A DNA stretch of 29,737 nt from a virus. Position 1 is the first letter of the stretch. Each line of letters opens with the position of its first letter. The notes under the pieces are model-generated. The model did no database searches and was not told where the DNA came from. It worked only from the letters and a program-made list of their open reading frames with translations. A program made the position numbers and the translations under genes. This document shows positions 1,484-29,737 of this stretch, piece by piece. Where the stretch lies: positions 1 to 29,737 of the IMG/VR virus record IMGVR_UViG_3300017727_000097; one strand, written 5' to 3'.

Positions 1484-1653
1484 TGGATCTGGCAAATTTG
1501 GTGTACCTAATAGGATTTTTAAACTTTCATGGTTTAATGTCTATTCATCTGAATAACTACACGAGAGAGAGAGTTGATATGGAAAGCTATATCAATAGAA
1601 AATTTGGTGAGATTATTGCAGGTGAGGAATGGAATATAAGAAGGAATCCTTAA
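1483..1653 (+). CDS. Possible small ORF bridging connector and wbl
   Basis: This frame is open from 1465 to the TAA at 1651-1653. The widest plausible start is GTG at 1483, which overlaps the preceding stop as TAGTG, with CAGG about ten bases upstream; it would give 56 residues with a hydrophobic N-terminus (LANLVYLIGFLNFHGL) and a charged helix-prone end (RERVDMESYINRKFGEIIAG). ATG at 1537 (38 aa) and ATG at 1579 (24 aa, after a GAGAGAGAG run) are alternatives with weaker ribosome sites. It overlaps the start of wbl by 25 bases. This is otherwise the longest gap in the early region (145 bases). I do not recognise it. It could equally be an untranslated leader of wbl. Confidence 0.3.
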   Translation: MDLANLVYLIGFLNFHGLMSIHLNNYTRERVDMESYINRKFGEIIAGEEWNIRRNP

Positions 1654-1922
1654 GTAATCTTCTTAGATTACAAGAATTGTGGTGGCAAGACGATGCTAAC
1701 TGCAAAGACGCTGATCCTGATATCTTTTTTCCTGAACGAGGTGCAAGCACAAGAAAAGCAAAAGAATTATGTAATTCCTGTATTGCCCAAGAACATTGTT
1801 TAGAATACGCTATAGTCAATGCAGAAAAGTTTGGCATATGGGGTGGACTGAGTGAAAGGGAACGCAGAAAAATTCGTAAGGAACGAGGATTAACTAGAAA
1901 GAGGAGAAAAAATGCCGAGTAG
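1629..1922 (+). CDS. WhiB-like (Wbl) iron-sulfur transcription factor
   Basis: 97 residues with all Wbl hallmarks: cysteines at 25, 48, 51 and 57 (C-x22-C-x2-C-x5-C) that ligate a [4Fe-4S] cluster, 'FFP' at 33-35, 'CLEYAI' at 57-62, the conserved GIWGG turn at 69-73, an 'SERERRKIR' segment, and a basic C-terminal tail (RGLTRKRRKN) expected to contact DNA. Known Wbl proteins bind region 4 of the primary sigma factor and act as redox- or NO-sensitive regulators; phage versions (for example WhiBTM4) can dominate the host WhiB2 and block septation and superinfection. AGGTGA at 1620-1625 is the likely ribosome site. The gene overlaps the next one by 11 bases. Its location inside the head-tail genes, not an early region, is odd and implies late expression. 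The family is certain; the target genes are unknown. Confidence 0.95.
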   Translation: MEYKKESLSNLLRLQELWWQDDANCKDADPDIFFPERGASTRKAKELCNSCIAQEHCLEYAIVNAEKFGIWGGLSERERRKIRKERGLTRKRRKNAE

Positions 1923-15558: not shown

Positions 15559-15779
15559 TGACACACGAATATAAAATAGTTGATCCAACAGTGACCGAAA
15601 GCACAGAAGAAAAGTTGGACAAACTTTATATACAAATTCATGCACTAGAAAAACATCACTTAGTTTTAGATGCAATTGAATCACCAAGTGAAGAAGAGAC
15701 AGATGAAATTGAGGCTATTGAATCTCAATTGACTGCACTTATTGGTGAATATGAAGATCTAGGAGGAAACTTCGATTGA
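15558..15779 (+). CDS. Small acidic coiled-coil protein (73 aa)
   Basis: 73 residues, starting on a TAATG overlap with the fibre gene. It is mostly helical with heptad-like leucines (EEKLDKLYIQIHALEKHHLV) and a glutamate-rich middle (SPSEEETDEIEAIESQL). A length and helix content like this is typical of small phage tail accessory or fibre-assembly proteins. Translational coupling with the fibre gene may point to a chaperone or a connecting protein. No family recognised. Confidence 0.7.
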   Translation: MTHEYKIVDPTVTESTEEKLDKLYIQIHALEKHHLVLDAIESPSEEETDEIEAIESQLTALIGEYEDLGGNFD

Positions 15780-16534
15780 AGTTTTCTTTGGGGGGAAAAC
15801 AATTCATAGAGTTTAAGACCGATGTCGTAGGTCTTGAATCTATTTCACCTGTAAAAAAATCTAATTCCTTTATACCAAGTTGGTTTAAAGATATGGATGA
15901 TTACATTATAAGACAACCAAATCCATCTGGACTTCCGAATGCTTTTGGTAAAACAAAAGAAACTGCTAAAAAACACAGTGGTGGAACTGTAAAAAGATGT
16001 CCTGCAATAATAGACTTAATAACTGAGGGCTTTGTAATCCCTATGTGGTGCGATTTTTTAATTCAGAGAAATGATGCACTTCTTGAGTGGGATAATAAAA
16101 ATTTTCCGTATGGTATTGAATTTCACAGCAAAGAGCAAATAAGTCACTGGAAACTTAAAAAAACAGATTTTCCTGAGGGTGTTAAGTTTGTTAATCCGTG
16201 GCGTATATACACACCACCAGGTTATTCAGTTTTATTTATAGCACCATTTTATGAATTTGAAAAAAGATTTACTGTTCTACCTGGTATCGTAGAAACAGAT
16301 ACATATCATCATATAAATTTTCCAAGCATAGTGCATACAAATAAAGATCTAATAATAGATAGAGGTACGCCATTTATTCAAGTCATTCCATTTAAAAGAG
16401 ATGATTATGACTTTGATGTTGGACAAATGTCTGAAAAGCAAAAAAGTCAAGATACTGGGCATAAAAATGATTTAAACAGTAAGTTTAAAAATGCTTACAG
16501 ATCAATTACCCAAAGACAAAAAAATATCAAGTAA
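15776..16534 (+). CDS. Conserved phage protein of unknown function (DUF6065-like)
   Basis: 252 residues beginning at TTG 15776, which overlaps the previous TGA; a perfect AGGAGG at 15761-15766 (nine-base spacing) supports this unusual start. Recognisable blocks are 'IPSWFKDM' (31-40), 'KRCPAIIDLITEGFVIPMWC' (73-92), 'VKFVNPWRIYTPPGYSVLFI' (about 136-155), 'LPGIVETDTYHHINFPSIVH' (168-187) and 'GTPFIQVIPFKRDDYDF' (197-213). I recall this block order in proteins of marine phages and some bacteria with no known role (DUF6065-type); the name is from memory and unverified. A beta-rich fold with many aromatic and His residues could suit an enzyme or a binding protein. Its place among fibres suggests a virion or fibre-modifying role. 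Confidence 0.75.
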   Translation: MKFSLGGKQFIEFKTDVVGLESISPVKKSNSFIPSWFKDMDDYIIRQPNPSGLPNAFGKTKETAKKHSGGTVKRCPAIIDLITEGFVIPMWCDFLIQRNDALLEWDNKNFPYGIEFHSKEQISHWKLKKTDFPEGVKFVNPWRIYTPPGYSVLFIAPFYEFEKRFTVLPGIVETDTYHHINFPSIVHTNKDLIIDRGTPFIQVIPFKRDDYDFDVGQMSEKQKSQDTGHKNDLNSKFKNAYRSITQRQKNIK

Positions 16535-26010: not shown

Positions 26011-26340
26011 ATGGCAGTATATAACGCAGCTGAGTTAGCCGAAGTAACTGCACTTGGAACATCTGAAGCAGAAATTTTCAGTAATTCTAACAAGTGTATT
26101 ATTAAGCAAATTATGTTAGCTAACTATACAGCAACAGACAGAACAGTGGAGATCAAACTTATTCCTACAGGGGATACAACTGGTGATCAACATATCATTT
26201 TTGGTGATACAACTGTTCAAGCAAATACAACTACAGTTATTGACTTAGCTATGGTTATACCTGCTAATGCTTCTGTTGCTGCAAAATGTTCAGCAGCAAC
26301 TTCAGTGAATATACAAGTTTCTGGTGTAGAGGTAAGCTAA
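26011..26340 (+). CDS. Small beta-type tail/fibre protein (109 aa), copy B
   Basis: 109 residues, same length and strand order as the protein at 24216: 'CIIKQIMLANYTATDRTVEI' then 'DTTVQANTTTVIDLAMVIPA' then 'AAKCSAATSVNIQVSGVEVS'. The ending 'A..V.I.VSGVEV' mirrors 'DAEIVVSVVEI' of the other copy. The identity is low, so they are ancient paralogues or the same fold. AGGAG precedes the ATG. The stop overlaps the next ATG as TAATG. Virion role inferred from the neighbours. Confidence 0.75.
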   Translation: MAVYNAAELAEVTALGTSEAEIFSNSNKCIIKQIMLANYTATDRTVEIKLIPTGDTTGDQHIIFGDTTVQANTTTVIDLAMVIPANASVAAKCSAATSVNIQVSGVEVS

Positions 26341-27692
26341 TGCCTGAAATACAAGTACCTGAGCCAATCTTTTTGGACAGATTAGGTGGCGATGAAATAT
26401 ATGGTTATGGGCAAGATGGTGATGTTACCCTTGCTTCAAATACGACATTGTCTCGTGATATGTATTACAACGATTTATCGATAAACGCCAATGTCACATT
26501 AGATACTAATGGGTATCGTGTTTTTGTAAGAGGTACATTGACATTTGCAGACGCTACATCTCGTATAGGTAGATTTACAAGTAAAGCAACAGCAGGAACA
26601 CTTAAAGGTGGTTTTGATAAAGGTACAGATGCTACAGACACTTTAGGTGGTAGATCTTCAGAACAAACAGACGGAGAACACTCTGGTAATACTTTTTTTG
26701 ATGGTGAAAACGATTTCTTTAACTTGTCAGTAGCTTTAGCTGGGCAAAAGTTTGATCAATCTACTGAAACTTTTAAATTTTTAGGTGGTGGATCAGGCGC
26801 ATCCGATGGTGCAATAACAGCAGACGCTACTGGTGGTGCAGACGGAGGAGACACTGGTTGGGCTGATTATCAAACTGTAGGTGCAGATGGTGGAAAAGGC
26901 GCAGATGGTAACTCAGCATCAGCAGGTACAGGTGCAGTAGGTGGTGGAGTAGTTTTAGTAGTAGCTAAAGCTGTTTCAGGAGATGGAACAATTAGAGCAG
27001 ACGCAGATGATACTACTGGTACCACACAAGGTGCAGATGGCGCACCAGCCCCAGACGCATCCACACCAGGTAATAACTATTCTTATCCTGGTAATACTAA
27101 TCCAACAAACTATGGTGCAAACTATGGTGCCAACAATGGTGCAAACTATGGATCTAACAGTGGCTCAAACCCCTCAAACTCAGGTAGTAATAGTACTAAT
27201 TACGGATCTAACCCAACAAATTATGGTTCTCACACACATTATCACTGGCATCCAAGTCCACCAATAAATAACTACGCAACAGGTTTTTATCATTATCACT
27301 ATGCACATACGCATAGTTATCCTGGTAGTAACTATTCATATCCTGGTAATAACTACTCATATCCAGGTAATAACTATTCATATGGTTATAGCTATGGGTA
27401 TTCATACGGATACTCTTATGGCTATTCATATGGTGGTAACAATAATCCAACAAACAATGATAGCAACCCAACAAACTATCACCCAGGAGGTGCTGGTGGA
27501 TCTGGGGGTACAGCTTCTCAATCTTATAATGCTGGTGGTGGCGCAGTAGTTTTTGTAACAGGAACTAAACCTTTGCCGTCAGGTTTGACATTAGCAGCTG
27601 CGGCTGGAACAGGTGGATCTGGTTCTGCAACAGCAGGAACAGTCGTTACTGTATTTAATATTGCAGCGACAGATACAGATCCAAGTAGTTAG
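26340..27692 (+). CDS. Tail fibre with prion-like Tyr/Asn/Gly/Ser domain (450 aa)
   Basis: The start is ATG 26340 (TAATG overlap); an upstream ATG at 26286 would add 18 residues lying inside the previous gene and is disfavoured. Residues about 20-95 ('DEIYGYGQDGDVTLASNTTL', 'SRDMYYNDLSINANVTLDTN', 'GYRVFVRGTL') form a beta-solenoid start found in marine-phage fibres. About 100-240 is Gly/Asp/Ala-rich. About 243-382 is low complexity, with nearly 30 Tyr and runs such as YGYSYGYSYGYSYGYSYG, plus 'HTHYHWH' and 'HYHYAHTH'. The remaining 68 residues are again Gly/Ala-rich beta sequence. The first part is shared with the next gene, which lacks the low-complexity section. Confidence 0.82.
   Translation: MPEIQVPEPIFLDRLGGDEIYGYGQDGDVTLASNTTLSRDMYYNDLSINANVTLDTNGYRVFVRGTLTFADATSRIGRFTSKATAGTLKGGFDKGTDATDTLGGRSSEQTDGEHSGNTFFDGENDFFNLSVALAGQKFDQSTETFKFLGGGSGASDGAITADATGGADGGDTGWADYQTVGADGGKGADGNSASAGTGAVGGGVVLVVAKAVSGDGTIRADADDTTGTTQGADGAPAPDASTPGNNYSYPGNTNPTNYGANYGANNGANYGSNSGSNPSNSGSNSTNYGSNPTNYGSHTHYHWHPSPPINNYATGFYHYHYAHTHSYPGSNYSYPGNNYSYPGNNYSYGYSYGYSYGYSYGYSYGGNNNPTNNDSNPTNYHPGGAGGSGGTASQSYNAGGGAVVFVTGTKPLPSGLTLAAAAGTGGSGSATAGTVVTVFNIAATDTDPSS
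27066..27485 (+). repeat. Low-complexity Tyr/Asn/Gly/Ser coding tract
   Basis: Encodes about 140 residues made of short degenerate units: NYGAN and NYGSN types (27100-27230), His clusters (27230-27320), three SYPGNNY-type units (27315-27380) and a five-fold Gly-Tyr-Ser-Tyr run (about 27380-27435). Codons within the Gly-Tyr-Ser-Tyr run vary (ggt, ggg, gga, ggc; agc, tca, tct), so the DNA is less repetitive than the protein. Confidence 0.9.
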
Positions 27693-27700
27693 GAGTAATT

Positions 27701-28360
27701 ATGGCAATTACAGAAATAGGTCAAGTACCAAGCGATTTTGAAACTTTTGATGTGATCCCTGATAGCATTTATGGATCAGGTATGGACGGAAATGTTACTA
27801 TCTCATCTAATACAACTCTCACTAGAGATATGCACTATAACAATTTAACAATAGATCCAGGTATTGTGTTAGATACAGCAGGATATAGAGTTTTTGTAAG
27901 GAATAGTTTAGGAATGGCACCAACATCAACTAATCAATCTGATACAAAAATTGGAAGAGTCGGTGGAGTTTCAACATCAGGAACCCTTAGAGGTGGTGCA
28001 GTCGCAGCCGTAACAAACTCTCTTGGTGGTAATGGAAATGGATATACAGCTACAGCACCTACTGTTGGAGCAGAGTATTTTAATCACCCAGACATTGCTA
28101 TAGAGGGCGTAATAGTTCATGGTGGCCAAACAACACCAGCAGCTCTACAAGGTGGTGCAGGCGATAATGTCAATCATGGTGGTGGCATTGTAGTCCTATG
28201 TGCAAGAAAATTGCAGGGCTATGGAACAATAGAAGCTAGTGGTGAGACAACAACTGGTGGTGGCGTTATATTTATTATTTCTCAAGATCTACCACTAACA
28301 GGTATTCTTACGGATGTAACTGGTTATGCAAGTGGTACTGTAAAAACATTTAAGGTATAA
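27701..28360 (+). CDS. Short fibre paralogue of the preceding gene (219 aa)
   Basis: 219 residues. The N-terminal about 75 residues ('DSIYGSGMDGNVTISSNTTL', 'TRDMHYNNLTIDPGIVLDTA', 'GYRVFVRNSL') align over their whole length with the preceding fibre, as do 'TKIGRVGGVSTSGTLRGGAV' and the end 'GGGVIFIISQDLPLTGILTD' with 'GGAVVFVTGTKPLPSGLTLA'. It therefore looks like a duplicate that lacks, or never gained, the low-complexity insertion. AGGAG precedes the ATG. The likely role is a tail-fibre adhesin or assembly partner of its long paralogue. Confidence 0.8.
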   Translation: MAITEIGQVPSDFETFDVIPDSIYGSGMDGNVTISSNTTLTRDMHYNNLTIDPGIVLDTAGYRVFVRNSLGMAPTSTNQSDTKIGRVGGVSTSGTLRGGAVAAVTNSLGGNGNGYTATAPTVGAEYFNHPDIAIEGVIVHGGQTTPAALQGGAGDNVNHGGGIVVLCARKLQGYGTIEASGETTTGGGVIFIISQDLPLTGILTDVTGYASGTVKTFKV

Positions 28361-28362
28361 CA

Positions 28363-29259
28363 ATGTCTACTGTTCGCATTTATTACAGTAGAGAAGATCA
28401 AGATTATGATAACTATAATCTTTGGTATATGCCTGGTCGACACATGGGAAACCCTGATTTACTAGATCCTGATCATACTTATCAAAATCTATACAATGAA
28501 GCACCTAGAGTAAAAAAAGATTTTACTGTTTCTGGTAATTATGGATATGTAGATATAGATCTAAATGGTGCAAAAAATTGTGATTTCTATATTAGGCGTA
28601 AAGACTTTTTATATGACTTAGACGAAAATGCAACATATACTCCTGAGTCAATATTCTGGATGACTGGATTTATATACTCTATACAAGAAAACTTATATGA
28701 AGATGTTTATGTGAAAGAAAATAAACCATACCTATATAAAGATAGTTTTTTTCAAGCAATATCACCAATGGCAATCACTTTAAGTGGTGATGATAGTTAT
28801 ATAGATACAGATGATATTTTACACGAAGATGGTAGAGAACATGGGGAAGAGGGCGAAGGTTGGTGGTGGACACACTACAAAATATTCAATACTTATGAAA
28901 ATTCTACTACACTAGAAATACCACAAAGTGTTCTTAATCAAATATTAAAGAACGAAAATATGGACACAATCATGACCATACTTATGTTAAACTTGTGTGG
29001 TAAGACTTACACTATAGGAGAAGATATGCAATTATCAATTGACGCAGATGCTTTATCAGCTGAAAAAGCTGACGCATTACAAATGGTTGACAAAGCTATT
29101 GCTAACTGTCTTTATAAATTAGGCGAAGTTCCAGCAGATTTTGACGAAGCTGATTTCCTCGCTGACTTCGATACTTATAAAGCTAGTAAAAGTGATGTTT
29201 TAGAAAACACAATAGATTACTTAAAAGAGTTGCTAGAAACAAGACCAAATCTAGTCTAG
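28363..29259 (+). CDS. Virion protein with PUD/CBM41-like N-terminus (298 aa)
   Basis: 298 residues. 'TVRIYYSREDQDYDNYNLWY' at 2-21 and 'GYVDIDLNGAKNCDFYIRRK' at 61-80 followed by 'DFLYDLDENATY' resemble the start and end of PUD/CBM41 alpha-glucan-binding modules ('tv.IhY.r.dgdYdgW.lW.w' and 'a.vdv.l.....vgFiir..d..kD.d.d'). The rest is novel to me: a Trp-rich patch (GEGWWWTHYKIF, near 168-179) and a helical C-terminus (200-298, 'ADALSAEKADALQMVDKAIA'). It could bind host-surface or environmental glycans. The resemblance is by eye and needs a profile search. AAGG precedes the ATG. Confidence 0.75.
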   Translation: MSTVRIYYSREDQDYDNYNLWYMPGRHMGNPDLLDPDHTYQNLYNEAPRVKKDFTVSGNYGYVDIDLNGAKNCDFYIRRKDFLYDLDENATYTPESIFWMTGFIYSIQENLYEDVYVKENKPYLYKDSFFQAISPMAITLSGDDSYIDTDDILHEDGREHGEEGEGWWWTHYKIFNTYENSTTLEIPQSVLNQILKNENMDTIMTILMLNLCGKTYTIGEDMQLSIDADALSAEKADALQMVDKAIANCLYKLGEVPADFDEADFLADFDTYKASKSDVLENTIDYLKELLETRPNLV

Positions 29260-29278: not shown

Positions 29279-29737
29279 ATGAGAGAGGTATTCTTTATAC
29301 CTGAAGGTCACGATATAAACGATTATAAAGATCAGTGGCAGGGTAAATTTCAAGAAATACATACAGGTCTATCTACTAATAATAAAAAATATGTTTTAAC
29401 TCCTGATAAAGCACATCCATTTAGGATCCCTGAATTTCAATTAACACATACACCAGAAACTTGTTCTGATACAGAGTATTTAATTTACAGACTTGTAGAT
29501 GACTATGGTGAGTTTGAAGATGATCCAAGCTACACAATGGAAGTATGGAGTAGGGATTATGATAACCCTAAATCTGAAAAGGAAAAGGTAGACACACACA
29601 TATTAGGTTACAATAAGAAATTTCAATTATATGAAACCGAGCATGTCAGATTAAATACAGGGTGGTATTTACTTATATTTATAAAAAATGGTGAAATGTT
29701 TGATGTCAAAGAACTTGCTGTTTTTGAAAATCAAGAG
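29279..29737 (+). CDS. Hypothetical protein, cut by right edge (153+ aa)
   Basis: ATG at 29279 after a strong GGGGAGG ribosome site (29268-29274), open to the last base (153 codons seen). The visible product is beta-rich with many aromatic and acidic residues ('EVFFIPEGHDINDYKDQWQG', 'TEYLIYRLVDDYGEFEDDPS', 'LNTGWYLLIFIKNGEMFDVK'). It looks like a further beta-sandwich virion or adhesin protein following the PUD-like gene. I do not recognise a family. The C-terminus lies outside the window. Confidence 0.8.
   Translation, partial: MREVFFIPEGHDINDYKDQWQGKFQEIHTGLSTNNKKYVLTPDKAHPFRIPEFQLTHTPETCSDTEYLIYRLVDDYGEFEDDPSYTMEVWSRDYDNPKSEKEKVDTHILGYNKKFQLYETEHVRLNTGWYLLIFIKNGEMFDVKELAVFENQE

Follow-up and report, generated by a model that had tools for sequence, protein, structure and literature searches.

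A protein that resembles the starch-binding modules of pullulanases is encoded in a viral tail-fibre cluster, near the right-hand end of a 29,737-nucleotide stretch of viral DNA (the window; G+C content 36.3%). Capsid (2-439), head-tail, WhiB, tail terminator, tail tube, tape measure and tail-spike-like genes are carried on the plus strand of the window, and the gene at 28363-29259 closes a run of fibre-type genes. The preliminary description had proposed that positions 28363-28680 encode a PUD/CBM41-like carbohydrate-binding domain of a virion protein, which could attach virions to sugars at the host surface. The relevant genes, in which the fibre identity of the neighbours is deduced from their type of sequence, are as follows.

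26340-27692, plus strand: fibre-type protein rich in Tyr, Asn, Gly and His (the mechanical open reading frame runs from 26286; the ATG at 26340 shares bases with the stop codon of the open reading frame before it)
27701-28360, plus strand: glycine-rich fibre-type protein of 219 aa, whose gene immediately precedes each family member that was found
28363-29259, plus strand: PUD/CBM41-fold gene, 298 aa from an ATG start, with an N-terminal PUD/CBM41-fold domain
29279-29737, plus strand: next gene, cut by the end of the window, 155 aa in relatives

The three peptides on which the preliminary description relied lie in a single frame of the 298-aa protein, TVRIYYSREDQDYDNYNLWY at residues 3-22, GYVDIDLNGAKNCDFYIRRK at residues 61-80 and DENATY at residues 87-92. 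In viral contigs the closest relatives share 78-100% identity with it, and the one that is identical probably belongs to the same virus or to one very close to it. The gene is real, conserved and under purifying selection, with dN/dS of 0.19-0.25 against three relatives (0.20 for L003, 0.25 for L002 and 0.19 for L004). The protein has no match in PHROGs. A GH13 catalytic domain is absent from the chain, which is 298 aa long and has no other Pfam family near the cut-off; the protein is not a pullulanase.

The family to which this protein belongs was found at 97 loci, some of which are overlapping stretches of one contig, and these reduce to 34 distinct proteins of 278-312 aa. All 34 immediately follow the 219-aa fibre-type gene; 28 are separated from it by 1-3 bases and the remaining 6 by 84 or 114 bases. 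At 36 further loci the 219-type gene is present and a family member is absent. The gene is thus encoded within the tail-fibre cluster, as would be expected of an adhesin, and from this position we infer that the 298-aa product is a virion protein and receptor binder. It might instead stay inside the cell and form no part of the virion, binding host glycogen or some glycosylated product or assisting enzymes that modify the fibres or the host. Such enzymes are encoded shortly downstream in relatives: in the near-identical contig L001, the 155-aa protein (which has no Pfam family at E<=0.01) is followed by two 2OG-Fe(II) oxygenases, an FkbM-type methyltransferase and a DUF6065 protein. However, the coupling to the upstream fibre gene holds in 34 of 34 proteins and the enzyme genes start after one further gene, so that we regard an intracellular role as very unlikely.

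Several other features of these fibre regions were observed. The protein encoded at 26340-27692 contains a long tract of low complexity made of repeats of Tyr, Asn, Gly, Ser and His (SYPGNNYSYGYS, THYHWHP), and its gene is also present in L004, L013 and L017; in more distant viruses (several of L072-L083) the fibre gene beside the 219-type gene carries collagen-like G-A-T/G-A-S repeats. 2OG-Fe(II) oxygenases lie beside fibre genes in L001 (6384-7786) and L058 (5670-8926). In L058, the place of the PUD gene is taken by a GlcNAc-type glycosyltransferase (PF11397, E 1.9e-26), with a 2OG oxygenase three genes later. The Skp1 hydroxyproline-GlcNAc transferase is one of the PF11397 enzymes, and one might guess at a phage pathway for hydroxylation and glycosylation of fibres. 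A member of the FAD-dependent tryptophan-halogenase family (PF04820, E 8e-103) adjoins collagen-like fibre genes at L077:7777-9270, with a similar open reading frame in L080, and a short ferredoxin (Fer4_15, E 1.7e-15) is encoded at L017:12461-12721, on a viral contig of the same family. Within the window itself, positions 15776-16534 encode a 252-aa protein that matches phrog_7084 (E 2.7e-73, unknown function) and weakly resembles DUF6065, which recurs in the L001 enzyme cluster downstream of the family.

The top Pfam family for the 298-aa protein is PUD (PF03714), which matched residues 3-94 (28369-28644) in hmmscan with E=4.6e-5 and 24.6 bits, at a cut-off of 25; searching the record of the window itself in six frames gave 26.1 bits, above this cut-off. 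When 14 control genomes were searched in six frames, Thermotoga maritima alone matched, and PUD was absent from the other window proteins that were scanned (0/8 at a limit of E 1, 0/8 at E 0.1 and 0/7 entries at E 0.01). The match extends across the family, being present in 11 of the 11 members of the first alignment at E<=10 (best 8.3e-8) and in 25 of the 31 members of a wider alignment at E<=0.1 (best 8.4e-8). At the level of viral records, PUD was detected at E<=1 in 13 of 15 that bear the family and in neither of two that do not, with 7 of the 17 exceeding the cut-off (best 34.8 bits), the record of L013 scoring highest; the records without a match were those of L054 and L113, which carry the family, and those of L066 and L058, which lack it. 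Sequence searches of the PDB were each marginal when taken alone (2j44 at E 1.3, 0.8, 0.03 and 0.35; 2j71 at E 0.8 and 0.1), and CBM41 pullulanases stood at or near the top in every one of them. A sequence-profile search with the 31 members ranked 2j71, 2j44 and 2wan first (E 0.1-0.5), and alignment of the family with three solved CBM41s using hhalign gave a probability of 95.4 (E 1.9e-8). A chance likeness with no true relation to PUD would accord with the marginal PDB searches and with the shortfall of 0.4 bits when the window protein alone is scored by hmmscan, but it is already disfavoured by the agreement between the HMM, profile-profile and template-free fold comparisons and is hardly credible; the proposed resemblance to PUD/CBM41 is therefore borne out. 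Marginal matches to HLH, INTS1_R4, lysenin, DUF1368, Nop5 and Relaxase_M, confined to one or two members each where counted, were set aside as chance.

The structure predicted for the protein divides it into three parts.

28363-28758, plus strand: PUD/CBM41-fold domain, residues 1-132, delimited by Pfam, hhalign, and AlphaFold2 with Foldseek and VIA-align
28759-28980, plus strand: variable middle, residues 133-206, mean pairwise identity 0.25-0.26, with low model confidence at residues 144-166
28981-29256, plus strand: most conserved region, residues 207-298, mean pairwise identity 0.63, mostly helical

A template-free AlphaFold2 model built with 26 relatives had a mean pLDDT of 75.7, with block means of 80-92 at residues 1-20, 51-80 and 101-140 and poor values at residues 85-99 and 144-166; a model built with 11 relatives was poor (pLDDT 47.8) and was left out of all fold searches. 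When the first of these models was compared with the PDB using Foldseek, the six best chains, which were the only matches at E<=0.001, all were or contained CBM41 modules (E 9.7e-6 to 6.6e-4), and CBM25 and CBM26 modules ranked next. VIA-align matched residues 1-133 to the same family, with Z scores of 10.6 for 2j43 (99 residues, rmsd 2.6), 10.1 for 2j71, 10.0 for 2j72, 9.9 for 2ya1 and 9.8 for 2j44, and of 7.9 and less for the structures that followed. Residues 1-132 are accordingly modelled as a complete beta-sandwich of CBM41 type, with a sequence akin to that of the PUD domains in pullulanases. The beta-sandwich that the preliminary description had named as a check was thus recovered in the prediction, with CBM41 at Z 9.8-10.6. 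The start of the interval that it had assigned to the domain, 28363-28680, also stands; its end falls short, since the last strand of the sandwich (residues 114-118, within the region of VYVKENKPYLYKD at residues 115-127) lies beyond both the Pfam match and position 28680, and the modelled domain continues to about residue 132 (28758). In the viral structure library, the AlphaFold2 model found no match at E<=0.001. A likeness of the C-terminus to 4xh3 was rejected, its Z score of 5.6 being within the range that VIA-align terms uninformative.

Whether such a domain could bind alpha-glucan depends on its aromatic residues. We take W27, W29 and W73 to be the stacking tryptophans of the alpha-glucan site in the T. 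maritima CBM41. Comparison of that module (HYHRYDGKYDGWNLWIWP...IVRLNEW) with the window protein (YYSREDQDYDNYNLWYMP...YIRRKDF) gives the following equivalents, of which F82 was aligned by eye on the motif.

28423-28425, plus strand: W21, aligned with the first Trp of L-W-x-W
28429-28431, plus strand: M23, aligned with the second Trp of L-W-x-W
28606-28608, plus strand: F82, aligned with the Trp of IVRLNEW

The expectation that the stacking aromatics would line up therefore held in part: one tryptophan is kept, but the second has become Met and the third Phe, and W-x-W was found in none of the 26 members of the alignment. Among the 31 members, position 21 carries an aromatic residue in 30 (11 Trp, 10 Phe and 9 Tyr) and His in one; position 23 carries Phe in 19, Met in 8 and Tyr, Trp, Ile and Cys in one each; and position 82 carries Phe in 17, Gly in 9, Leu and Met in 2 each and Asn in one. 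R49, F54, Y62, K80, D81 and G102 are invariant in all 31. A sugar site in the domain is plausible, but the alpha-glucan site has not been retained in its canonical form and no particular ligand is indicated. As the three-tryptophan comparison failed, we refer to the domain as having a CBM41 fold and as PUD-related rather than as a functional CBM41. The stretch comprising residues 26-48, which is of low identity and mostly lacks a counterpart in the solved CBM41s when aligned with hhalign, could cover the putative sugar site.

Conservation within the N-terminal domain alternates, with mean pairwise identities of 0.55 (residues 1-25), 0.28 (26-48), 0.50 (49-82), 0.28 (83-101) and 0.46 (102-132). 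In the C-terminal region helices are predicted by AlphaFold2 at residues 228-252, 262-267, 269-274 and 278-297, and residues 207-298 may form the part that serves attachment or oligomerisation. An 89-aa open reading frame weakly like the C-terminal profile (E 0.0058) is located behind the fibre gene of another virus (L082:7389-7658), and given this open reading frame the C-terminus may be a separate module. The overall pattern, in which the helical end and the core of the sandwich are conserved and the loops vary, would fit a docked adhesin. A different use of the same fold would be structural, with the domain holding or trimerising fibre proteins without binding sugar and the middle region acting as the receptor binder. 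The loss of W-x-W in 26 of 26 members, the strict pairing with the 219-aa fibre gene and the position of the middle region as the most variable part all favour such reuse, as does the N-terminal domain having the lowest dN/dS (0.13-0.15, compared with 0.20-0.29 for the whole protein, in three close relatives). However, the retention of an aromatic residue at position 21 in 30 of 31 members and of F, Y, W or M at position 23 in 29 of 31, together with best-scoring folds that are sugar-binding modules and loops that vary in the manner of binding loops, argues against a purely structural function, which we consider a possible but less favoured explanation.

The window contains one marker of the host.

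1629-1922, plus strand: WhiB transcription factor

Of the 15 family-bearing records, 6 have a WhiB gene, the window included, as do both family-less records. One report describes WhiB as actinobacterium-specific and as present in phages of Ca. Actinomarinales, whose hosts possess an island for capsule or envelope polysaccharides; it also describes the cell-wall composition of marine Actinobacteria as not known (PMC7771536). On the basis of the WhiB gene in the window and this account, the virus probably infects marine Actinobacteria. Searches of 50,697 phage records with tblastn returned no relative of the 298-aa family (three queries) or of its 219-aa neighbour, and genome_contigs, scanned once for the family and once for the 219-aa neighbour, likewise yielded none, hence no link to a host or prophage. 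Some actinobacteria carry a capsular alpha-glucan, and the domain might bind alpha-1,4-glucan in the original manner and attach the phage to such a capsule. This would be in keeping with the actinobacterial host suggested by WhiB, with the retention of W21 and F82 in the window protein, and with the closest folds, CBM41 followed by CBM25 and CBM26, all being alpha-glucan modules. It is difficult to reconcile with the fact that just one of the three stacking tryptophans is still Trp, that other members have F, Y or H in its place and that the third position is Gly in many (9 of 31); true alpha-glucan receptor binding is consequently improbable.

We favour the interpretation, with a probability of roughly 0.55, that the gene product is an accessory, virion-associated glycan adhesin of a tailed siphovirus, built on a CBM41 fold with a remodelled site. 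In such an adhesin the C-terminal part would anchor the protein to the tail tip or to neighbouring fibre proteins, leaving the CBM41-type domain to face outward, and an aromatic patch (W21, F82 and others, with the W29 position remodelled) would bind a saccharide of the host envelope. Sugar binding would then add reversible attachment to that provided by the main receptor-binding protein, as proposed for the CBMs of lactococcal 936 phages. The predicted CBM41-like fold suggests that the virus may grip a sugar coat on its host, with alpha-glucan as one possibility for the sugar. A more speculative scenario, which we advance only tentatively, is that an uncultured lineage of marine actinophages took a pullulanase-type starch/glycogen module, freed from its enzyme, into the tail tip, where its aromatic site, now diversified, would recognise capsule sugars on streamlined marine Actinobacteria that resemble alpha-glucan or are related to it. 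If the adhesin interpretation is correct, the CBM41 fold joins the sugar-binding modules used by siphophages and provides an example of an enzyme-associated starch module re-aimed in a virus, as well as an expressible probe or handle for the envelope sugars of marine Actinobacteria.

Amongst known systems, the closest are the CBM41 (PF03714) modules of T. maritima PulA (2j71-2j73), streptococcal SpuA (2j44/2ya1, 2j43) and the pullulanase 2wan, which we take to be from the genus Bacillus. They share the beta-sandwich modelled here for residues 1-132 and a similar first hairpin, V-x-x-x-Y-x-R-x-D-x-x-Y-x-x-x-x-L-W, whereas the phage domain is found within a viral fibre cluster, has no GH13 enzyme attached, lacks the second Trp of W-x-W and contains extra stretches at residues 26-48 and 83-101. 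The starch-binding modules CBM25 and CBM26, also alpha-glucan binders, provide the next-best folds (Z 5.9-7.9), but with scores below those of CBM41 and without a sequence match in the Pfam scan they are not the family concerned. No CBM41-type phage protein is recognised in the literature searched, as judged from titles and the openings of abstracts. CBMs on siphophage virions are already known: in the lactococcal 936 siphophages they form part of the Dit, major tail and neck proteins, and two of these modules bound host cells (PMC6669499). The likeness lies in CBM-type domains on a siphophage for which extra attachment to the host is proposed; the differences are that the present domain, a predicted one, is encoded by a separate gene and belongs to another CBM family.
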